From the NCBI GenBank assembly GCA_023666425.1, contig JAMPCA010000003.1, positions 1 to 64,000 of the forward strand: a stretch of DNA of 64,000 nucleotides, read 5' to 3'. Both the position numbers and the translations under genes were made by a program. Source of the DNA: Muribaculaceae bacterium. GTDB taxonomy: Bacteria > Bacillota > Clostridia > Lachnospirales > Lachnospiraceae. The notes below the pieces were generated by a model. The model saw only the letters and a program-made list of their open reading frames with translations, ran no database searches and was not told the origin of the DNA. Below, one piece after another: positions 52,930 through 64,000 of the stretch; position 1 is the stretch's first letter, and every line of letters starts with the position of its first letter.

Positions 52930-54108
52930 CTAAATCTTTCGCCAGACCATCCGATCCACGACGCCGGTGTAGGACTGGATCAGCTTCACCACCTTCGTGC
53001 TCACATTTTCCTCCACATAATCCGGCACCGGAATCCCGTAATCCCCTGCCTCATGCATGGCGACCGCAAGCGTCACCCCGCGGAGCAGGGAGTTTTCCTC
53101 TATCCCGGCCAGAACAAAACAGCCCTTGTCCAGCGCCTCCGGCCTCTCCGTAGAGGTGCGGATGCACACCGCGGGAAACGGCCGTCCTATGGAAGTAAAG
53201 AAACTGCTCTCCTCCGGGAGCGTGCCGGAATCCGACACCACCGCAAAGGCCTCCATCTGCAGCTTGTTGTAATCGAAAAAGCCCATGGGTTCATGCCGGA
53301 TCACCCTCGCATCCAGCACAAAGCCGGATTCTTCCAGCCGCTTTTTTGACCGGGGATGGCAGGAATAGAGAACCGGCATGTCGTAGTGCTCCGCCAGACG
53401 GTTCACCGCCGTAAAAAGCGATACAAAGTTTTTCTCCGTATCAATATTCTCCTCCCGGTGCGCAGAAAGCAGGATATACCGCTTCGGCGTAAGCCCCAGT
53501 TTTTCCAAAATATCCGAGCCTTCCGTCTCCTGCAGATTCGAGCGCAGCACCTCCGCCATCGGGGAGCCGGTCACAAAAGTACGCTCCTTGGGCAGGCCGC
53601 ACTCCATCAGATATCTCCTCGCATGCTCCGAATAGGCAAGATTCACATCCGAGATAATGTCCACAATCCTGCGGTTTGTCTCCTCCGGCAGGCACTCGTC
53701 CTTACAGCGGTTTCCCGCCTCCATGTGAAAAATCGGAATGTGCAGCCGCTTCGCCACAATCGCGGACAGGCAGGAATTCGTGTCCCCCAGAATCAGAAGC
53801 GCCTCCGGCCGCAGGGCGCACATCAGCTTGTAGGAACAGTTTATGATGTTCCCCACTGTATCTCCGAGATCCTCCCCCGCCGCATCCATATACACCTCTG
53901 GCTCCCCGAGCCTTAAATCCCGGAAAAATATCCCGTTCAGGTTATAGTCATAATTCTGCCCGGTATGGGCAAGGATACAGTCAAAATAAATCCGGCACTT
54001 TTTAATCACAGCGGACAGCCGGATAATCTCCGGCCTTGTCCCCACGATAACCAAAAGCCTGAGCCTTCCGTCTTCCTTAAATCTGATATCACTGTAATCG
54101 GTTTTCAT
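52930..54108 (-). CDS. capG: UDP-GlcNAc 2-epimerase, CapG/FnlC type
   Basis: A 392-residue non-hydrolysing UDP-sugar 2-epimerase of the WecB fold. It shows VIVGTRPEIIRLSAVI, LAHTGQNYDYNLNG, the catalytic-region HMEAGNRCKD and EETNRRIVD, LLSAHREENID and SDSGTLPEESSFF. With capF and capE directly upstream, the reaction is most likely UDP-N-acetyl-L-pneumosamine to UDP-N-acetyl-L-fucosamine, the last step of UDP-L-FucNAc synthesis, rather than UDP-ManNAc formation. AAGGAGGG precedes the ATG. Confidence 0.9.
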   Translation of the reverse strand: MKTDYSDIRFKEDGRLRLLVIVGTRPEIIRLSAVIKKCRIYFDCILAHTGQNYDYNLNGIFFRDLRLGEPEVYMDAAGEDLGDTVGNIINCSYKLMCALRPEALLILGDTNSCLSAIVAKRLHIPIFHMEAGNRCKDECLPEETNRRIVDIISDVNLAYSEHARRYLMECGLPKERTFVTGSPMAEVLRSNLQETEGSDILEKLGLTPKRYILLSAHREENIDTEKNFVSLFTAVNRLAEHYDMPVLYSCHPRSKKRLEESGFVLDARVIRHEPMGFFDYNKLQMEAFAVVSDSGTLPEESSFFTSIGRPFPAVCIRTSTERPEALDKGCFVLAGIEENSLLRGVTLAVAMHEAGDYGIPVPDYVEENVSTKVVKLIQSYTGVVDRMVWRKI

Positions 54109-54138
54109 ATACCCTCCTTACGCACTTTCTGCTTGCTG

Positions 54139-55371
54139 CTAAACCGGCTCCCGGTAGGTATCGGGACGCGCCTCCTCAAATGGCTCGCTGGCCCACATCA
54201 GCGTCACCAGATCCCTCGTGTCCGACAGGTTCTGGATATTATGCGCATATCCCGGCAGCATGTAGACCGCCTCGAGTTTTTCCCCGCTCACCTCAAAGGT
54301 CATCACCGGATAGGGCTGTCCGTGTTCGTCCACGCCCAGCTTCCGCTCCTGAATCCGCGCGTGTCCTGACACCACAACAAAAAATTCCCACTTGGAATGA
54401 TGCCAGTGCTGACCCTTCGTAACTCCCGGCTTACTGATATTTACGCTGAACTGGCCGCAGCTTTTTGTCTTTAACAGCTCTGTGAAGCTTCCCCTTCCAT
54501 CCGCCTTCATCTCCAGCGGAAACAATGCCTTTTCCTCCGGGAGATAGGACAGATAGGTTGAAAACAGCTTTTTTTCAAACGAACCTTCCGGTATCTCCGG
54601 GAGCATAAGGCTGCCGGGCTGTGCGCGGAAGCTTTCCAGCAGGGCGGCAATCCTGCCGGGGGAAGCCTTATGGACAGTCGGGACAAAACAGTAGCGCCCG
54701 TCTTTTCGCGCCACCTCCTGCAGCCCCGCATACCCGCAGCGGTGCTCCCCGCCGTTTAGCGCCAGAAGCATCTCCTCTGTCAGGTCATCAATGTATAAAA
54801 GCGTAAGCTCTGTATCCGGGTCGCTGATCCGGATCGGCAGATCGTTGGCAATCTGGTGGCAGAAGGTCGCTACCACGGAATTGTAATTCGGCCGACACCA
54901 TTTCCCGAACAGATTAGGAAAACGGTAGACCAGCACACGCGCGCCCGTCTCCCTTTCATGCCGAAACACCAGCTCCTCCCCGGCAAGCTTGGAGCTGCCA
55001 TAAGGCGACCCTTCATAGCGGCCGACGCCGCTCGCCTGAATCGACGAGGCATACATCACGGGGCAGGCATTCCTATGCTTTTTCAGCATATCCAGAAGCT
55101 CTGAGGTAAATCCGCAGTTACCGGCCATAAATTCCCCCGGCTCCTTCGGACGGTTCACCCCTGCCAGATGGAAGACAAAATCGGCTTTCTGGCAGTACGC
55201 ATCCAGCTCCTCTTTCGTGGACGTTCTGTCGTATGCCAGTATCTCCATTCCGCCCGGCTCCATGCCTGCAAGCTTATGTACACGATCCTTACCGTCGCGG
55301 ATGCACTCCAGTGCAGCAATAAGATTTTTTCCCACAAAACCGCCAGCTCCGGTCACTAATATCCGATACAT
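54139..55371 (-). CDS. capF: Capsular reductase/epimerase CapF
   Basis: A 410-residue two-domain protein. The N-terminal SDR domain starts MYRILVTGAGGFVGKNLIAAL and has the YGSSKLAGEELVF Tyr-Lys pair. The C-terminal domain (about 290-400) is a cupin with GVTKGQHWHHSKWEFFVVVSGHARI, whose histidines bind zinc. This fusion is diagnostic of CapF/FnlB/WbjC, which epimerises C3 and then reduces C4 of the 4-keto sugar made by CapE. It overlaps nothing and lies three bases after capE. Confidence 0.95.
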   Translation of the reverse strand: MYRILVTGAGGFVGKNLIAALECIRDGKDRVHKLAGMEPGGMEILAYDRTSTKEELDAYCQKADFVFHLAGVNRPKEPGEFMAGNCGFTSELLDMLKKHRNACPVMYASSIQASGVGRYEGSPYGSSKLAGEELVFRHERETGARVLVYRFPNLFGKWCRPNYNSVVATFCHQIANDLPIRISDPDTELTLLYIDDLTEEMLLALNGGEHRCGYAGLQEVARKDGRYCFVPTVHKASPGRIAALLESFRAQPGSLMLPEIPEGSFEKKLFSTYLSYLPEEKALFPLEMKADGRGSFTELLKTKSCGQFSVNISKPGVTKGQHWHHSKWEFFVVVSGHARIQERKLGVDEHGQPYPVMTFEVSGEKLEAVYMLPGYAHNIQNLSDTRDLVTLMWASEPFEEARPDTYREPV

Positions 55372-55374
55372 CCC

Positions 55375-56418
55375 TTACCGCCCTTTCTGCGCGCCGGAAA
55401 CGGCAAGCGCTTCCCTCACATAATCCGTGGTCAGGATTTTCTCCATGGTTTCTTCGATATCCAGCCGCCTGGTATTGTGGGAGGTATAAGCGTCGCCTGC
55501 CATGGTCTGCACCTGTCCCTGCACAAAAAATTTGTCATAGTTTAAGTCCCTGCCGTCCGGCAGCACCCGGAAATAGTCCCCCATGTCCACACACCTCATG
55601 CACTCCTCGTTCGTCATCAGCGTCTCAAAGAGCTTCTCCCCGTGCCTTGTCCCAATCACACGCGTGCCGGTATCGCCAAACAGCTTCTGCACCGCTTTGG
55701 CCAGATCGCCGATCGTGGATGCAGGCGACTTCTGCACAAACAGATCCCCGGGCTCTCCATGTTCAAATGCAAACATTACCAGATCCACCGCCTCGTCCAG
55801 ATTCATTAAAAACCGCGTCATATTCGGATCTGTGATGGTAAGCGGATTTCCCTCCCGGATCTGGTCGATAAAAAGCGGTATGACAGACCCCCTGCTGCAC
55901 ATCACATTTCCGTAGCGGGTGCAGCAGATCGTCGTCTTTCCCGCCGCTCCCCGGGCGTTCGCCGCGATCACCTTCTCCATCATCGCCTTGCTGATTCCCA
56001 TGGCATTGATCGGGTAGGCCGCCTTGTCCGTGGACAGGCAGACCACCTTCTTCACCCCGGCCTCCTCCGCCGCATGGAGCACGTTGTCCGTCCCCTGCAC
56101 ATTTGTCTTTACGGCCTCCATTGGGAAAAATTCACAGGAAGGCACCTGCTTTAATGCCGCCGCGTGAAAAATGTAATCCACGCCCGCCACTGCATCCCGC
56201 ACAGACTGGATATTGCGCACGTCCCCAATGTAGAACCTCACCTTTGAGGCAAGGCGCGGGTGCTTCGCCTGCAGCTCATGGCGCATGTCATCCTGCTTTT
56301 TCTCGTCCCTTGAAAAAATGCGGATCTCCGCCAGATCGGAGTCCAGAAAATGCTTGAGCACAGTGGAGCCAAAGGAACCGGTGCCACCGGTGATCATCAG
56401 TGTTTTGTCTTTAAACAT
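55375..56418 (-). CDS. capE: UDP-GlcNAc 4,6-dehydratase/5-epimerase CapE
   Basis: First enzyme of UDP-L-FucNAc synthesis, an SDR of the polysaccharide-biosynthesis CapD/E group. The ~347-residue protein has TGGTGSFGSTVLKHFL (Rossmann), IFSRDEKKQDDMRHEL, DYIFHAAALKQVPSCEFFP, and AYPINAMGISKAMMEKV, where Met replaces the usual SDR tyrosine as in known CapE/FlaA1 enzymes. Start set at the ATG at 56418 behind GGAGGTAAGT; an upstream TTG is part of the ribosome site. Heads the GC-rich capE-F-G run. Confidence 0.95.
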   Translation of the reverse strand: MFKDKTLMITGGTGSFGSTVLKHFLDSDLAEIRIFSRDEKKQDDMRHELQAKHPRLASKVRFYIGDVRNIQSVRDAVAGVDYIFHAAALKQVPSCEFFPMEAVKTNVQGTDNVLHAAEEAGVKKVVCLSTDKAAYPINAMGISKAMMEKVIAANARGAAGKTTICCTRYGNVMCSRGSVIPLFIDQIREGNPLTITDPNMTRFLMNLDEAVDLVMFAFEHGEPGDLFVQKSPASTIGDLAKAVQKLFGDTGTRVIGTRHGEKLFETLMTNEECMRCVDMGDYFRVLPDGRDLNYDKFFVQGQVQTMAGDAYTSHNTRRLDIEETMEKILTTDYVREALAVSGAQKGR

Positions 56419-56568
56419 ACTTACCTCCAAATTTATAAAAAATTTACAATTTTTCTGTTGCAGGCCTCAGCCATACATGCTATACTTTTTCGCATATCTA
56501 CCCATAAATCCCAAACAATTTACAACTTCATAATCTACATTTCATTACAGAAGCAGAAAGGACAGTCT

Positions 56569-57244
56569 ATGACAGAACACAAGCATGTCAACTGGCATAG
56601 CGCCACCGTAGATGCAATCAAAATCGATCTGCGGGACTATGCCGATATCCTGGAATACCAGGACGAATATACACTCAGCAACGGAGCCCACCGCATTGAC
56701 CTTCTTCTAATCAGGAAAAAGCCTGGAATTTCTCAGCTTTGTTACCCGGCATTTCCCCCGAAATGTATTCCGGCATCTTCAAAAAGAATGCGGAAAAATA
56801 GTTGAAAAAATGGCTCCGGGGATATATTATGTACATAGGGATATGTATGTCACCCAGTTTCTCGTCACCAGTGAGCTGAACGAAAAGGAATACCTCTATC
56901 TCAAATGCCTGACCAACAGCTTCTCCGACACAGAGCTGGTCAACCGGCTGGTCGCGGACTGCAGGCTTCATATCGCGGAAGCCAGTTACAGCAACTACAT
57001 GCACCAGTTATCCCGTGCAAGTGCAAAGAAAGGAGCGCCCCCTATGATATGTGAAGGACTTTTGGAATTATTCGGCACCAGTTCCGAAGAAATCATCGCC
57101 AATACAAAAAAGCAGGATGAAGAATTCTACAACGCCAAGCTTAAGGCCAAGGATGATTATTACCAGTCGCAGATCCAAAGCCTGCAGGAGCAGGTTGCGC
57201 AATTGCAGGCTGAAAGCGAACGCCTAAAGCAACAGCAGAATTAA
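56569..57244 (+). pseudogene. Lachnospiraceae-type repeat-family protein (possible PD-(D/E)XK nuclease-like), internally deleted
   Basis: The N-terminal piece (ATG 56569) reads HVNWHSATVDAIKIDLRDYAD and HRIDLLLIRKK, then shifts frame near 56725. The other frame carries on FLSFVTRHFPRNVFRHL, QKECGKIVEKMAPGIYYV and to the end at 57244, including PPMICEGLLELFGTSSEEII and a C-terminal coiled coil. From memory, intact members of this abundant Clostridia family have about 70 more residues between the two parts, containing a VFEIKG-like stretch. So a deletion with frameshift has inactivated it. A fragment from the ATG at 56810 could still be translated. Family role unknown; mobile-element-like distribution is inference. 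Confidence 0.7.
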
Positions 57245-57773: not shown

Positions 57774-58811
57774 CTATTTTTCAAACATATTTAAAAACTG
57801 CTCCAAACAATATATCTGCCATTTTTGATTTCCAGTAAATTTTTCCATGTCGATATCCTTCCTAAATTCATAACGCCTTGGTCCCTTCCAGTCTTTAAAG
57901 TAAAAATCAACCGGTCTTGGCATTGGAATTTTTTCCGGTATTTCGATGTCAGGATATTTTTCCTTATAAAGATGTCTGATTAAATATTTCGATTCCCCTT
58001 TTCGTATCCTTTCTAAGTCAAGCGGTTCAGCCAGTACCATCTTTGCATAAGGATCTATGTATGGCATACCAGCCACTGCAAAAGCATTCCTATACGAACT
58101 CAATAATTCTATAAGGGACACCTCTTTCATAAACTTTAAAAAATCTATTTTGTTTCCATTACGATATCGCCTAAACACATACGACATGTCAGCCGGATCA
58201 GCCAAAACATCTTCTGGTTGCGTAAAAGTGTACCGCTTCATAAAATCTTCCCACAGCCAATCCTGCGCAAGCAGTTTGTCCATTCCCCCAAATATAAGAT
58301 CCGCAGAAGCTCCTGTAACCAACCTTTCCACCCCATTGCATTTTGCCTGAACCGCCGCCTGGTATAATTGCGGTTCAATCGAATGAACTGGTTCTGCCTT
58401 TCCTTTCATTAAAAGTGGGAGCGGTTCTGTCGCTACTTTCCAGTTAATATCCACATAATGCAGTCTTAATCCCCCCACTTTTGCATAATACTCTGCTCTC
58501 TCTAACTCTTCCCGCTGGTAGCTCCCTCCAAGAAATCGGAATGTATATGCGTCACACCCCCTCATATAAGAAGCTAAAATCCCGCTGTCCATTCCTCCCG
58601 ACAAAAGAATTCCCAACTTCTCGTCTTTTAAAGAATCAAATGTCTTCTGAAGTTCAATATCTATATTTTCTTCTTTCTTGATTTGTATCTGTTCTCCTCT
58701 GCGTATTGCTTTTGCATCTTCATGTTGCATTCCCTCATAAAAATCCATATCGTTTCTTTCAATATAGCGCAATGCTAAGTAAGAACTCATACAATATTTT
58801 TTATCAATCAT
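57774..58811 (-). CDS. Asparagine-synthase-like ATP-pyrophosphatase
   Basis: A 345-residue protein with the synthetase half of asparagine synthase: the PP-loop GILLSGGMDSGILASY at about residues 88-103 and a downstream LVTGASADLIFGGMDK like the GxGxDExFGGY motif. The N-terminal class II glutaminase domain is absent, so ammonia must come from elsewhere or another nucleophile is used. In a polysaccharide locus it may amidate a uronic-acid carboxylate or adenylate another group; lasso-peptide-type cyclases share the fold but no precursor is seen. GGGAGGAAG precedes the ATG. Base composition is clearly AT-rich. Confidence 0.72.
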   Translation of the reverse strand: MIDKKYCMSSYLALRYIERNDMDFYEGMQHEDAKAIRRGEQIQIKKEENIDIELQKTFDSLKDEKLGILLSGGMDSGILASYMRGCDAYTFRFLGGSYQREELERAEYYAKVGGLRLHYVDINWKVATEPLPLLMKGKAEPVHSIEPQLYQAAVQAKCNGVERLVTGASADLIFGGMDKLLAQDWLWEDFMKRYTFTQPEDVLADPADMSYVFRRYRNGNKIDFLKFMKEVSLIELLSSYRNAFAVAGMPYIDPYAKMVLAEPLDLERIRKGESKYLIRHLYKEKYPDIEIPEKIPMPRPVDFYFKDWKGPRRYEFRKDIDMEKFTGNQKWQIYCLEQFLNMFEK

Positions 58812-58870
58812 TACAGCTTCCTCCCAATGTTTTTTCTACACATACTAATTTTTCCTAGTGTTTTATATAA

Positions 58871-59725
58871 TCACTTCACTAATTTTAACTGTTCCCCCGC
58901 AATCACTTGTATGCCCGTATTTGTTCCGTAACAGTATCTGCAACATTCCATATACTTAGCTTTTTTTACATAATTTTTCAAGTTACGCCTTAATTTAGGG
59001 TCATTCCGAACATCTATATAATCCCCTTTAATTGGAGTGAATCCCTGAATACCAGGTGCAACAATACTCCTTGAGCAATGACCTATCCAACCATTTTCCA
59101 AAGTCAAACACGTTTTAAATGCACACTCCTTAAATCTATTGGCAACTACTAAATCTCTATCTTCTCTTTTTACATCTTTCCCTAAACAATCCCATGTCCC
59201 ATTCCCTTTTTCAAAATTATATACATCAAAAGATATATTATTTGCAGTACACCATAAACTCAATTCTTTAACATGATTCCCCTGAAACGCGGCTTCATAA
59301 TTACTGATCCTCATTGTTATCTTTTTACTCTGCAAAAGTGGAATCAACTTGTCTCCTGGTATTATAGTTCCGTTTGTTGCGATATGAATATGATTAATTC
59401 TTTTTTCATTTACACAAAAATCTAAAATTTTATCCAATTCAGGATAAACAAATGGTTCTCCCCCCTGGATTTGCAAAAGATGTATTTTCTTCACTGAACA
59501 TAACACCTTACATAAATCAGATATTATATCATCTACGTTGTATTTTAAGTTTTCAGGTAATGCATAGGGGGAAAAATTTGCACACTCTTTGCATTTTAAT
59601 GAACATGCCTGACCAGTAATAAGAACCAAATACCCTCCTGCGCCTACTATTTTGTCATAAATATTTTTAAAATTCTTTCTTCCTATAATCAATATCAATA
59701 ACTTTTGAATAATTTGCTTAAACAT
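58871..59725 (-). CDS. Radical SAM protein of the surface-polysaccharide locus
   Basis: A 284-residue radical SAM enzyme. The 4Fe-4S motif is CSLKCKEC near residue 42, followed by LLQIQGGEPFVYPELDKIL (GGEP motif) and an HIHIATNGT strand. Cysteines near the end (CAFKTCLTLENGWIGHCSRS and CCRYCYG) suggest an auxiliary cluster like SPASM/twitch proteins. The N-terminus is hydrophobic-basic. AAAGGGGAAAAAG precedes the ATG. Substrate unknown; the neighbours (sulfotransferase, cytidylyltransferase, glycosyltransferase) suggest modification of a glycan or an attached small group. Confidence 0.85.
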   Translation of the reverse strand: MFKQIIQKLLILIIGRKNFKNIYDKIVGAGGYLVLITGQACSLKCKECANFSPYALPENLKYNVDDIISDLCKVLCSVKKIHLLQIQGGEPFVYPELDKILDFCVNEKRINHIHIATNGTIIPGDKLIPLLQSKKITMRISNYEAAFQGNHVKELSLWCTANNISFDVYNFEKGNGTWDCLGKDVKREDRDLVVANRFKECAFKTCLTLENGWIGHCSRSIVAPGIQGFTPIKGDYIDVRNDPKLRRNLKNYVKKAKYMECCRYCYGTNTGIQVIAGEQLKLVK

Positions 59726-59745
59726 CTTTTTCCCCTTTCAGCATT

Positions 59746-60180
59746 TTACTTCACATCTTCTAAATTGTAGCCTCGTAATTGACTAAGCGCTCCAGCTATT
59801 TTTGTGGACGATATTCCCTGAGTATACGGAAAATATACAATTTTAATATCCGCTTGTTGAAATTCTTTTTCATACGAATTCCACTTTTTTGTACCGTACC
59901 AGTCATCTCCCACAAATAGTATTGATGCTCCTATTTTTTTACATGCAGCAAGCTTATCCATATCATATTGAGGAACCGCAGCATCCACAAACTTACACGC
60001 TCTAATGATTTCAATTCTGTCTTCAAATGGTATAAAAGAGTTCTTACCCTTATAGGATACCAATTCATCCGTAGTGACTCCCACTACCAATTTATCACAC
60101 ATTCCTTTAGCATTTTTTAATAGATTTAAATGTCCAATATGAAACAAATCATATACACCCGTTGTATATCCTATGACCAT
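59746..60180 (-). CDS. Cytidylyltransferase, TagD-like
   Basis: A 144-residue nucleotidyltransferase of the HxGH superfamily. GYTTGVYDLFHIGHLNLLKNA has the HIGH motif, RIEIIRACKFVD follows, and TQGISSTKI near the end matches the RTxGISTT signature of glycerol-3-phosphate cytidylyltransferase. It would make CDP-glycerol or another CDP-polyol for decorating a wall or capsule polymer. The ATG at 60180 sits behind GAGGAGGG; an upstream in-frame ATG is in front of that site. Twenty-five bases after the sulfotransferase gene. No CDP-glycerol glycerophosphotransferase is visible in the window. Confidence 0.88.
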   Translation of the reverse strand: MVIGYTTGVYDLFHIGHLNLLKNAKGMCDKLVVGVTTDELVSYKGKNSFIPFEDRIEIIRACKFVDAAVPQYDMDKLAACKKIGASILFVGDDWYGTKKWNSYEKEFQQADIKIVYFPYTQGISSTKIAGALSQLRGYNLEDVK

Positions 60181-60205
60181 TTTTCCCTCCTCTTTTCTAC
60201 TCATC

Positions 60206-61246
60206 TTAAAATGATTCTTCTAATGTTGATCTTTCCTTCCTATAATCAGAAAAATCATACAAATAATCTGAAAGCATTTTCTCTATATAGGCAATATCTT
60301 TTTTCGCATCATCTATTCCAACATACAACTGTGTATTTCTAATAGAAATTTCAGGCTTAAATATTTCTTTTATTCTCGAATGTTCTTTTATTCCCAAAAA
60401 ACTTTCTATAATTTTTACCGTTTCATCATACTTATAGACCATATCCTCAAACTGTACCCTTAAAATCCGTTTATCATTTACTATTTTCTTTCGGCAATAT
60501 CTATAATAACTCACAAACTCATCTATATTCTGTGTCGGGCACCAATGGCAGATCACACACCATTTCTTATGATGAAACATATACAAATCTCTTGGATCAC
60601 GATCTACTACTATACATTTTGCGTCATCAAAATATTGCATCCCTGCACATGGATCATTTCCGGCAAACAACTGGTTTACAAAAATTGGACGCTTTAAATC
60701 ATAACCCATTTCTGCAAATAACTGTTCTAAGTACAATTTTGTTTCCTGAATAAAATTATCCGGCTCTATACTTAAATACATTGTCCGATCTAAAAATGTA
60801 TGTATTCTTTTTTTCTTTTTAATTTGAACAGGATTTATAATTCGTTTTTCAAACAGTCTGTATTTAAGAGTCCTCCAGAAATTATTTGTCAAATACTCAT
60901 CCATTCCCCAATAGCCTGTCCATTTTAACTGTACTATTTTTTCAACATACTCCATAGATATGTCATAGAATTTATGATTTGTCCATCTGTTATAATAACC
61001 ATGGGGCTCCCTATCTACCATTTTTAAAAAATGTATAAATCTATTTATCGCTATATCAGAACTGAAAAAACGTTCTGGTGCCTGACACAAATGATATTCC
61101 AAATCTAAAATGCCATCAGGAAGATATAACAAATTAAATTCATCCTGCATCCCGCCTTGTATATCGTCATATTCTTGCAACAATGCTTCAACTGCTCCCG
61201 AACCAGTTGAACCCAACCCACTAATACTTATAACTTCCATTTTCAC
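60206..61246 (-). CDS. Sulfotransferase-family protein
   Basis: A 346-residue P-loop protein resembling PAPS-dependent sulfotransferases: the N-terminal ISISGLGSTGSGAV corresponds to the 5'-phosphosulfate loop, and CIVVDRDPRDLYMFH with the later VQFEDMVYKYDETVKIIESFLGI are the 3'-phosphate-binding and KxxxGxx-type regions. It would sulfate a sugar of the surface polymer, a modification seldom reported in Clostridia. Start uncertain: GTG at 61246 or ATG at 61240, with AAAGGA just upstream. AT-rich. Confidence 0.78.
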   Translation of the reverse strand: MKMEVISISGLGSTGSGAVEALLQEYDDIQGGMQDEFNLLYLPDGILDLEYHLCQAPERFFSSDIAINRFIHFLKMVDREPHGYYNRWTNHKFYDISMEYVEKIVQLKWTGYWGMDEYLTNNFWRTLKYRLFEKRIINPVQIKKKKRIHTFLDRTMYLSIEPDNFIQETKLYLEQLFAEMGYDLKRPIFVNQLFAGNDPCAGMQYFDDAKCIVVDRDPRDLYMFHHKKWCVICHWCPTQNIDEFVSYYRYCRKKIVNDKRILRVQFEDMVYKYDETVKIIESFLGIKEHSRIKEIFKPEISIRNTQLYVGIDDAKKDIAYIEKMLSDYLYDFSDYRKERSTLEESF

Positions 61247-61290
61247 TCAATCCTTTCGATACCCATATTCGATAAAAACTGTGAACCAGC

Positions 61291-62520
61291 TTACATTTCC
61301 ATCTTAAAAAAATCTACAATTATATCTACCGTATATGCAGGTGTATTCATTGGATATAATTTGTTTAAATCAACATAGTCAAAACTTTTTTGTTTAACAT
61401 TTCGTACAAATTCTTCAAATTTTTTAACATTTTCTCCCATATTCTCACTTGTATACAGTATCAATGCATACGGATACCTTTCTAAATATTTTATACACAC
61501 ATCATTTTTTTTAGGCGCAATATGAATTATAGGTTTTGCAAAAGACATATAATAAAATAATTTTGAAGGAACAGCTCCTACATCTTCACTAAAATTATTT
61601 CCTATGCAAAGGCAAATATCCATCTTGAGCATTTCTTTATCTAAGAGTTCCTTTTCAATAGTATTATTCAAAAACACTCTATTCGGCATCTCTTCTTGGG
61701 CTTTTTTTACTTGTTCAACTGATTCTGCATCATATCCGCTATAAAATAGTACTCTAACTCCTATTTCATGCGAACAATTTCTTAATAAATCTAAAAAATA
61801 TTGTGGTGTACGATAATATTTATTTAATGCTCCTGTATAAACACATGTTATATCTTTCTCTTCTCTATTTTCTGTTTTCTTTTGTTGCAAAAACCGATTA
61901 TCCAACAAAGGAATATCTACATATCTACTTTTAAAATCATATTTCATATATCTTTTTTTACTATAAAAATTAGCATGATTAATCATTCGCAAAATCAAAT
62001 CTGCACTATTATAATTTTTTCTCTCAATGATTTTGTTTCTCCTTGAGAAATACTTAGACCACCCAGTATTATTAAAAACGTTGTCAGTTATGGAATCTAA
62101 TTCATATAAAATCAATCGTATTTCTGAATGTTCACCTTTTATTTCCCTCCCTATAACATTTGTAAATGTTGGTTTTTGTGTACAAAGAACAAACTCAAAA
62201 TCATTTTCCTCAATTAACTTATTTGCTAATTTCTTATACTCTTTCATAAAGCCTTTATTTTCTAATGGATAATATCTCAGCACCCTATATAAGGTTCGTA
62301 ACTTCTGAAATAATCGAATCTTAAGTCTTTTTGATTCATATGGAGGAATATTATATATATGATTTGTCCCTATTTTTTCATACCCTTTTCCCTCAGAACA
62401 TTTCAAAATATATGCTTCATATCCCCTATTAGAAAACTCATGTAATATAGTTTCTAAACATACGCCTATTGCATTTGGCTTTGGCATAAATGAATTGGTT
62501 AATACTAAAATTTTTTTCAT
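61291..62520 (-). CDS. Glycosyltransferase, GT-B (family 4-like)
   Basis: A 409-residue GT-B protein. The N-terminus KKILVLTNSFMPKPNAIGVCLETILHEFSNRGYE is the usual acceptor domain of family 4 enzymes, and the C-terminal half has CVYTGALNKYYRTPQYFLDLL and DICLCIGNNFSEDVGAVPSKLFYYMSFAKPIIHI, the donor-binding region with the E-x7-E-like pattern partly degraded (no clear EGF motif). Transfers a sugar during repeat-unit assembly; donor and acceptor cannot be read from sequence. GTAGGAGAG precedes the ATG. Confidence 0.85.
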   Translation of the reverse strand: MKKILVLTNSFMPKPNAIGVCLETILHEFSNRGYEAYILKCSEGKGYEKIGTNHIYNIPPYESKRLKIRLFQKLRTLYRVLRYYPLENKGFMKEYKKLANKLIEENDFEFVLCTQKPTFTNVIGREIKGEHSEIRLILYELDSITDNVFNNTGWSKYFSRRNKIIERKNYNSADLILRMINHANFYSKKRYMKYDFKSRYVDIPLLDNRFLQQKKTENREEKDITCVYTGALNKYYRTPQYFLDLLRNCSHEIGVRVLFYSGYDAESVEQVKKAQEEMPNRVFLNNTIEKELLDKEMLKMDICLCIGNNFSEDVGAVPSKLFYYMSFAKPIIHIAPKKNDVCIKYLERYPYALILYTSENMGENVKKFEEFVRNVKQKSFDYVDLNKLYPMNTPAYTVDIIVDFFKMEM

Positions 62521-62532
62521 ACTCTCCTACCT

Positions 62533-64000
62533 TTATTTAAAATTATGAAAGATATCAATTAAGTGCAAAAATTTTTTGTGAAACATGATAATACAATCAA
62601 ATATCACAATTACTACTCCCACTATTCCCTTTAATGCCATAGACAATAGCGGAATATCCATATTTATAAATTCTATTATTCTATATGCCAAAAATAATGA
62701 CAAAAGATAAATACAGCAATATTTTGCAATTAAAATTATATACTGCCAAGTCTTTTCACTTAAATTTTTGTAACATCCGAATGTTCTCTGAATAAAACGC
62801 AACGATAATCCTATGATTGTACCCATAAGAACACCCCCGATTCCATATGAACGCACAAAAATAATTGACAAAAACAAATTAATTAATGCGGAAGATATAT
62901 TTGCTCTCATATCTTTATCAAACATCCCTCGTATTTGCAGATATGCCGGCACAGCATTGTACATAATTTGAAAGAAAATATAGCTTCCAAATAAAATCTC
63001 TATACTTGTTGGTTGCACATATTCTTCACCTAACCATAAGGTTATAAAGGGCGTAATCAAAACAATATACTCAACAGCACATATACTTCCAATCACAAAG
63101 TATACAAACGTAACTGTTTCAAGAAATTCATTTTTTGCCACCTCCAAATTTTCAGACATCATTTTATTGCCAAAATAATTTCTAACCGCTGTATCTATTG
63201 GTGTATATATAGCTAATATTGCTGTTGCAATTGCCATATAATTTCCATATGAATTAACATATACCAACCCCATATTTCTCGATATCACAATACTATCTGT
63301 TGAGTTAAAAATGAAATTAGCAAACTGCATTACAATAGTATTTTTCAAATCGCGAAAAAGTCCTGCTACTTTTTCAATTCTTCCTAACACTGAAGAAAAA
63401 GCCCATGGATAAAGCTTTCTTGCTGTTACATCAAGTACGATGACATAAATGGCATTTCCTACAAGTCCAATTAGCAAATAGTAAAAATAGTTACGAAAAT
63501 TTAAAACAATTATCATTTGCGATATATAAATAAATATATTAATTATCAGATCACACCATATACCATAATATCCTTGTTCCCTCGCGCTTAAAAGCGCGAC
63601 ATTAGGAGCAGAAATCATTCGTATACTTTGTGTGATAACTTGTAATAAAAAAACTACCCTTAAAAAAGATGTTGTATATTGATTATCATAAATCAACTGC
63701 TCAAGGAAAAATGAACATCCAATCCCAAACACAACAATAAACAAAGCAATTAAATAGTAAAACTGCCTTGATAAACGCACAATTCTTTGTATAGCACTGT
63801 AATTATTATCTGCATTATATTGATACAATCTCGGATATATTGCTGTTATAAACCCAGCGGTTGCTAAATTAAGAAATTCTATTATATTTTGATATAAATT
63901 ACTCAATCCTGACAGCTCTGCGCCCATATATTTCATAAATATTCTTCGCAAGAACATTCCAAGTACACAGATTAAAAATTTATTAGCTATACCCAAACAA
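62533..64000 (-). CDS. Wzx-type oligosaccharide flippase, cut by window edge
   Basis: At least 487 residues of a multi-pass membrane protein of the polysaccharide-flippase (MOP) superfamily, with about 12-14 hydrophobic segments. Its N-terminal visible part, LRRIFMKYMGAELSGLSNLYQNIIEFLNLATAGFITAIYPRLYQY, is the typical substrate-chamber opening (FxxxxGxExxGLxxLxxNI). It would flip lipid-linked repeat units across the membrane for a Wzy-type polymer. The reading frame is open to the right edge, so the true start lies outside; the TTG at 63996 is not a convincing start. Strongly AT-rich. Confidence 0.9.
   Translation of the reverse strand, partial: CLGIANKFLICVLGMFLRRIFMKYMGAELSGLSNLYQNIIEFLNLATAGFITAIYPRLYQYNADNNYSAIQRIVRLSRQFYYLIALFIVVFGIGCSFFLEQLIYDNQYTTSFLRVVFLLQVITQSIRMISAPNVALLSAREQGYYGIWCDLIINIFIYISQMIIVLNFRNYFYYLLIGLVGNAIYVIVLDVTARKLYPWAFSSVLGRIEKVAGLFRDLKNTIVMQFANFIFNSTDSIVISRNMGLVYVNSYGNYMAIATAILAIYTPIDTAVRNYFGNKMMSENLEVAKNEFLETVTFVYFVIGSICAVEYIVLITPFITLWLGEEYVQPTSIEILFGSYIFFQIMYNAVPAYLQIRGMFDKDMRANISSALINLFLSIIFVRSYGIGGVLMGTIIGLSLRFIQRTFGCYKNLSEKTWQYIILIAKYCCIYLLSLFLAYRIIEFINMDIPLLSMALKGIVGVVIVIFDCIIMFHKKFLHLIDIFHNFK

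Follow-up and report, generated by a model that had tools for sequence, protein, structure and literature searches.

Transferases of the LicD and TagF types move phospho-groups from carriers of cytidine diphosphate (CDP), and together with TagD they account for the CDP-alcohol decoration of teichoic-acid-type polymers and capsule head groups. Amide bonds are the work of another group, the AsnB-type synthetases, in which AsnB stands beside the beta-lactam and carbapenam synthetases and TsnB9. Amide-bearing phosphodiester head groups do exist on surface glycans, as D-glyceramide 2-phosphate in the O-antigen of Providencia alcalifaciens O22 demonstrates (PMC6222762). Here, we analysed a stretch of 64,000 nucleotides (the window) from a Lachnospiraceae genome deposited as Muribaculaceae bacterium (GCA_023666425.1; 2.7 Mb, 28 contigs), which is the first 64 kb of the 162-kb contig JAMPCA010000003.1 (C22), and find that two of its genes are conserved as a unit, one encoding an AsnB-type PP-loop synthetase and the other a TagD-like cytidylyltransferase. 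The probable product of the pair is an activated small group, bearing an amide, for the decoration of bacterial surface sugars.

Relatives of the PP-loop protein were searched for in genomes of the order (n=392), in a genome contig collection and among plasmids, and the open reading frames (ORFs) of all loci were predicted and screened with profiles that we built ourselves. They were found in 13 of the 392 genomes, in 23 genome-contig loci including Paludibacteraceae, other Bacteroidales, Oscillospiraceae-type bacteria, Erysipelotrichaceae and Enterococcus canis, and on six Lactiplantibacillus plantarum plasmids. A TagD-like gene is present in 34 of the 37 loci with a strong PP-loop match, either within two genes (23 loci) or fused to it (11 loci), and the pair extends outside Clostridia to Bacteroidales, Erysipelotrichaceae, Enterococcus and Lactiplantibacillus plasmids. 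All 11 fusions are in Bacteroidales and take the form of one ~484-aa protein with the PP-loop part N-terminal and the TagD part C-terminal; Pfam finds both domains in a fused protein. The reciprocal search with TagD gave matches at E <= 1e-30 in 20 of 295 genomes of the order, and TagDs of at least 66% identity were confined to genomes with an adjacent PP-loop gene. The next best proteins in a phylum-wide search (57-60% identity) came without a PP-loop gene in the sequence stretches that were examined. A gene for LicD or for a CDP-glycerol glycerophosphotransferase (Glyphos_transf, TagF-type) lies at most 8 kb away on the same strand in 32 of the 37 loci, often adjacent, and Pfam supported these assignments on cluster representatives (LicD 146 bits, Glyphos_transf 169 bits). 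The gene order on the L. plantarum plasmids is glycosyltransferases, CDP-glycerol glycerophosphotransferase, TagD, PP-loop and flippase, and in this compact Wzy-type cluster no decoration genes other than the middle three are annotated from the glycosyltransferases to the flippase.

The original prediction had taken four enzymes of the window, the pair together with a sulfotransferase and a radical SAM protein, as one set whose homologues should occur together. Co-occurrence holds for the pair but not for the quartet: the sulfotransferase gene accompanies the pair in 2 of the 37 PP-loop loci, the window and the near-identical locus L036 of a Blautia sp. metagenome-assembled genome (PP-loop protein 96% identical to that of the window), and a radical SAM relative occurs in 3, these two and L029. 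On these counts we rejected the quartet as a co-conserved unit; the PP-loop and TagD-like genes form the unit and the other two do not belong to it. Literature searches, which covered open-licence papers, returned no description of the pair and nothing useful on the polysaccharide made by one of the L. plantarum strains that carry it. In seven of the Bacteroidales loci (L037, L038, L041, L043, L050, L051 and L055), an IspD-type cytidylyltransferase gene lies upstream of the fused gene, and most of them also have a HAD phosphatase gene.

The PP-loop protein matches PF00733 over residues 62-203 (48 bits, cut-off 21) and stays far below the AsnB equivalog TIGR01536 (35 bits, cut-off 267). As had been predicted, it carries no glutaminase domain in its 345 aa according to Pfam and NCBIfam profile scans. 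The SGGxDS motif is intact in 33/33 relatives whose sequence reaches the PP-loop, and S71-G-G-x-D-S, D171, G175-G176, K275, R279, K294 and R299 are among the invariant positions. An AlphaFold model (mean predicted local distance difference test score, pLDDT, of 93) matches amide-forming AsnB-type synthetases along its whole length, the top matches being TsnB9, human asparagine synthetase, carbapenam synthetase, AsnB and beta-lactam synthetase (VIA Z 15-20). The score to AsnB is 16.7, and the next structural group, LarE, is at about 12. No solved structure was close in sequence in a search with the single PP-loop protein. Tandem PP-loop copies are seen at L022:8458-10541 and L047:2869-4971, the latter fused head-to-tail into 700 aa, which could point to two successive ligations or to a heterodimer. 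In a more distant PP-loop group, a DUF362 protein is encoded right after the PP-loop gene, or after a radical SAM gene (L029, L030, L032 and L033).

The TagD-like protein belongs to its superfamily by PF01467 (70.7 bits) and does not reach the glycerol-3-phosphate cytidylyltransferase equivalog TIGR01518 (90.3 bits, cut-off 165.4); the position of TagD R113 is Tyr in the window protein. Among solved structures it is closest to ethanolamine-phosphate and glycerol-3-phosphate cytidylyltransferases, of which the former is first in the PDB by total score and the latter by single domain. A tree of 56 TagD sequences has a main group of 19 PP-loop-paired proteins (support 100/99) with no unpaired member within, while four further paired proteins group with unpaired ones and the fused ones form a third group with weak support. 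The pairing is therefore real, but it may have been gained or lost several times. A substrate switch in the paired clade was considered and rejected, as none of the four positions that distinguish it is clearly in the pocket.

The fusion, the adjacency and the CDP-dependent transferases together lead us to read the pair as a head-group module, and we hold, with slightly better than even confidence, that its two enzymes make a small head group that is activated by CDP and contains an amide bond. The TagD-like enzyme would couple cytidine triphosphate to a small phosphorylated molecule to give CDP-X, where X is the head group, and the AsnB-type synthetase would adenylate a carboxylate with ATP and join it to ammonia or an amine. 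The predicted amide could be formed either on X itself or by attaching an acid to X, in whichever order the two reactions may run. A LicD- or TagF-type enzyme would then move phospho-X to the repeat unit, giving a phosphodiester, before export by the flippase. In the window, the sulfotransferase and the radical SAM protein might further modify the glycan or the head group, either of which may be the target of sulfation, and the transferase for CDP-X would act from another locus.

Several observations weigh against this proposal. Profile scans of the ORFs in the window's own cluster found no LicD or TagF-type gene, so the CDP-X transferase must act from elsewhere in the genome if the proposal is correct; three strong LicD matches and one TagF-type match do exist there, in teichoic-acid-like and other clusters. 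The site aligned to Glu348, a catalytically important residue of AsnB, is Ala in the window and L036 proteins and Glu, Asp, Asn or Thr elsewhere, and the activity of the PP-loop enzyme in this lineage is therefore not assured. Paired and unpaired TagDs differ consistently at four positions only, which gives no sign of a different substrate for the paired ones. Finally, most loci were gathered with the PP-loop query, which biases the 37 towards PP-loop loci, and some of them are near-duplicates. The wider proposal, in which the pair constitutes a hitherto undescribed route to CDP-activated, amide-bearing head groups in gut Bacillota and Bacteroidota, condensed into one bifunctional enzyme in Bacteroidales and joined with sulfation and radical chemistry in this Blautia, is made tentatively and at somewhat less than even confidence.

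The absence of a glutaminase domain would also be accounted for if the synthetase used no ammonia at all. The TagD product would then be an amine, such as CDP-ethanolamine, and the PP-loop enzyme would link it to an acid (an amino acid, for instance). The related beta-lactam and carbapenam synthetases use the amine of their own substrate, the solved TagD relative that is nearest by total score is an ethanolamine-phosphate enzyme, and the substrate positions of TagD are alike with and without a PP-loop partner. However, NH3-dependent synthetases likewise lack a glutaminase domain, the best single-domain match is a glycerol-3-phosphate enzyme, and no acid-donor or amine-forming gene is conserved beside the pair, and we consider this mechanism a minor possibility. 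Another way to place an amidating fold is on the sugar: the PP-loop enzyme could amidate the uronic-acid carboxyl of the repeat unit, as is believed for AsnB-like enzymes in some O-antigen clusters, with TagD making CDP-glycerol separately. The Gfo/Idh, LbH acetyltransferase and DegT genes of the window cluster are of the type used for 2,3-diamino sugars, which are often uronic acids, and would suit such a role. Amidation of the sugar is nevertheless unlikely, since it leaves the association with CDP-group transferases unexplained, the two domains are fused in 11 loci and the L. plantarum plasmid clusters carry the pair without an annotated sugar-modifying gene nearby.

Two further explanations concern the window lineage more directly. 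The Ala in place of Glu348, seen in this lineage only, and the cluster without a LicD or TagF-type gene could indicate that the pair is a remnant in this strain and that the glycan is no longer decorated, but no ORF is disrupted, the remaining catalytic residues are retained and the PP-loop protein is 96% identical in another Blautia, which makes such decay improbable. Least of all do we expect that the four enzymes work as one dedicated route to a glycan that is sulfated and decorated with polyol or amide groups. Their genes do lie in a single run with short gaps, and L029 and L106 are two further loci in which a radical SAM relative neighbours a TagD relative. Against this, the window and its near-identical relative are the only loci in which the sulfotransferase joins the pair, and sulfotransferase homologues of 31-35% identity are found in four other genomes without a PP-loop gene beside them. 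The head-group module remains our preferred reading of the pair. The original prediction is partly supported: the analysis bears out a polysaccharide cluster in which CDP-group, amide and sulfate chemistry come together, with conserved catalytic motifs and a supply of 3'-phosphoadenosine 5'-phosphosulfate (PAPS) in the genome, but not the four enzymes as one set.

The sulfotransferase-fold protein falls just under the cut-off of PF13469 (25.0 bits, cut-off 27). Its TGS P-loop (5'-phosphosulfate binding, 5'-PSB) and RDPRD motif (3'-phosphate binding, 3'-PB) are invariant in 7/7 sequences, so that catalytic motifs are conserved here as in the PP-loop enzyme, in agreement with what had been predicted. 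The model (predicted template modelling score, pTM, of 0.75) has tyrosylprotein sulfotransferases bound to 3'-phosphoadenosine 5'-phosphate (PAP) as its top Foldseek matches, and its 46 best PDB matches are all of the sulfotransferase superfamily; no solved structure was close in sequence, in either single-sequence or profile searches. The genome has two CysNC-type genes for adenosine 5'-phosphosulfate (APS) kinase, of 603-628 aa with GTPase-like N-termini, in separate places (L034:9268-11992 and L035:5690-7501), both adjoining sulfonate-type ABC transporter genes. Because of these two genes, the first of which has a CysD-like neighbour, PAPS can be made in this genome. The first also adjoins a second polysaccharide cluster with a Glyphos-like ORF. 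A 711-aa ORF at L035:3540-5672 (-) is SsuA-like at its C-terminus, and by eye its N-terminus resembles a sulfotransferase (GTPKTATSS), although Pfam does not recognise it. The sulfotransferase homologues in the four other genomes of the order lie in polysaccharide-type loci without a PP-loop gene, some of them near other TagD-type proteins, and for this reason we assign the sulfotransferase an accessory role as a local addition. The same role is assigned to the radical SAM protein, which scores exactly at the cut-off of PF04055 (29.5 bits) and whose Cys41/45/48 (CX3CX2C) and Cys201/206/217/262/265 are invariant in 5 sequences; a relative of it is encoded close to a TagD relative in L029, and another directly next to one in L106.

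The four ORFs are intact and share one run on the minus strand at 57774-61246, with gaps of 1-59 bp and a family or fold match for each, as the original prediction had described. The features of the region are listed below.

Table. Features at the right-hand end of the window and in the flanking Fnl-like region.
Feature	Coordinates	Strand	Basis or remark
PP-loop AsnB-type synthetase, 345 aa, no glutaminase domain	57774..58811	-	PF00733; first member of conserved pair
Radical SAM protein, 284 aa	58871..59725	-	PF04055 at cut-off; CX3CX2C and five further conserved Cys; putative accessory
TagD-like cytidylyltransferase, 152 aa	59746..60204	-	PF01467; second member of conserved pair
Sulfotransferase-fold protein, 346 aa	60206..61246	-	TGS P-loop, RDPRD motif, fold; putative accessory, locus-specific
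Putative glycosyltransferase, 409 aa, family not confirmed	61291..62520	-	No meaningful Pfam/NCBIfam match
Flippase-like membrane protein	62533..64000, on to contig position 64041	-	Similarity to flippase-like ORFs
FnlA/FnlB/FnlC-like genes	52930..56430	-	Family scores below equivalog cut-offs; 55% GC, not AT-rich

Read rightward from 57774, the order of these genes is the reverse of that of transcription. The window stops within the flippase gene, and the remainder was read from the same contig, where the polysaccharide cluster continues to ~79 kb; the four-enzyme run is the distal end of this putative Wzy-type cluster. The presence of a Wzx-type flippase and a glycosyltransferase had also been predicted. 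The former is assigned because it resembles flippase-like ORFs of further polysaccharide loci (E 2e-29 and 4e-27), with 502 aa in L003, eight hydrophobic segments and no Pfam match, but the latter has no meaningful family match and a Blautia homologue as its sole relative among the fetched ORFs. Beyond the flippase come a GT2 glycosyltransferase, a DegT aminotransferase, a hexapeptide acyltransferase, a Gfo/Idh oxidoreductase, more glycosyltransferases, a GNAT protein and a DUF2334 protein, followed by a polymerase-like membrane protein, another hexapeptide protein, a sugar-phosphate transferase (PF02397) and a second DegT enzyme. Of the parts expected in a Wzy-dependent cluster, the initiating sugar-phosphate transferase has a PF02397 match of 202 bits and the glycosyltransferases several GT2/GT4 matches; the flippase and polymerase candidates lack a Pfam match. 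The DegT, hexapeptide acyltransferase and Gfo/Idh genes are consecutive at L003:9127-11754 (contig C22 65127-67754), the usual set for a 3-acetamido sugar.

The predicted AT-richness was borne out, with a GC content of 32% in 57774-64000 against 54% in 1-52000, and the whole cluster, including its part beyond 64000, is at ~29-44%. This low GC relative to the first 52 kb suggests horizontal acquisition of the cluster. A tyrosine recombinase gene lies past the far cluster end (L004:3711-4604, contig C22 79711-80604) and is a possible agent of acquisition; carriage by a phage was rejected, as there was no match in phage records or viral contigs. The Fnl-like genes (FnlA 490 bits, WbjC-type reductase 326 bits and WecB-type epimerase 198 bits) probably supply UDP-N-acetyl-L-fucosamine (UDP-L-FucNAc) for the glycan, of which L-FucNAc would be a likely sugar, and in L036 the PP-loop gene is followed by the same three ORF clusters. 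Two ORFs without a Pfam match (56350-57244, +), which separate the Fnl genes from the AT-rich cluster, are possibly fragments of one broken boundary gene. Promoter- and terminator-like sites in the region were no more frequent than in shuffled sequence.

If the proposal is true, a cytidylyltransferase combined with an amide-forming synthetase would bring a further chemistry to the phosphodiester groups that decorate the surface glycans of gut bacteria. It also offers a concrete, testable function for genes whose sole annotation is 'asparagine synthase C-terminal domain-containing protein' or 'adenylyltransferase/cytidyltransferase family protein'. Since the pair is found on plasmids of a tractable food bacterium, L. 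plantarum, and exists in Bacteroidales as one fused polypeptide, its product is open to direct chemistry and enzymology.

In comparison with known systems, most relatives resemble TagD plus TagF/LicD decoration in having a TagD-like enzyme and a CDP-dependent phosphotransferase in the same cluster. They differ in the added AsnB-type synthetase, which is fused to TagD in some of them, and the window differs further in a TagD below the glycerol-3-phosphate equivalog cut-off and a cluster without the transferase. The synthetase shares its PP-loop domain, the SGGxDS motif and its fold (Z 15-20) with AsnB, the beta-lactam and carbapenam synthetases and TsnB9, but has no glutaminase domain, only 11-19% identity and a cytidylyltransferase as partner. 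The sulfotransferase is like PAPS-dependent sulfotransferases in its P-loop, RDPRD motif, fold and supply genes in the genome, although it scores just below the Pfam cut-off. Compared as a structure only, the D-glyceramide 2-phosphate of P. alcalifaciens O22 (PMC6222762) is an amide-bearing small acid that is phosphate-linked to a glycan, like the product predicted here.

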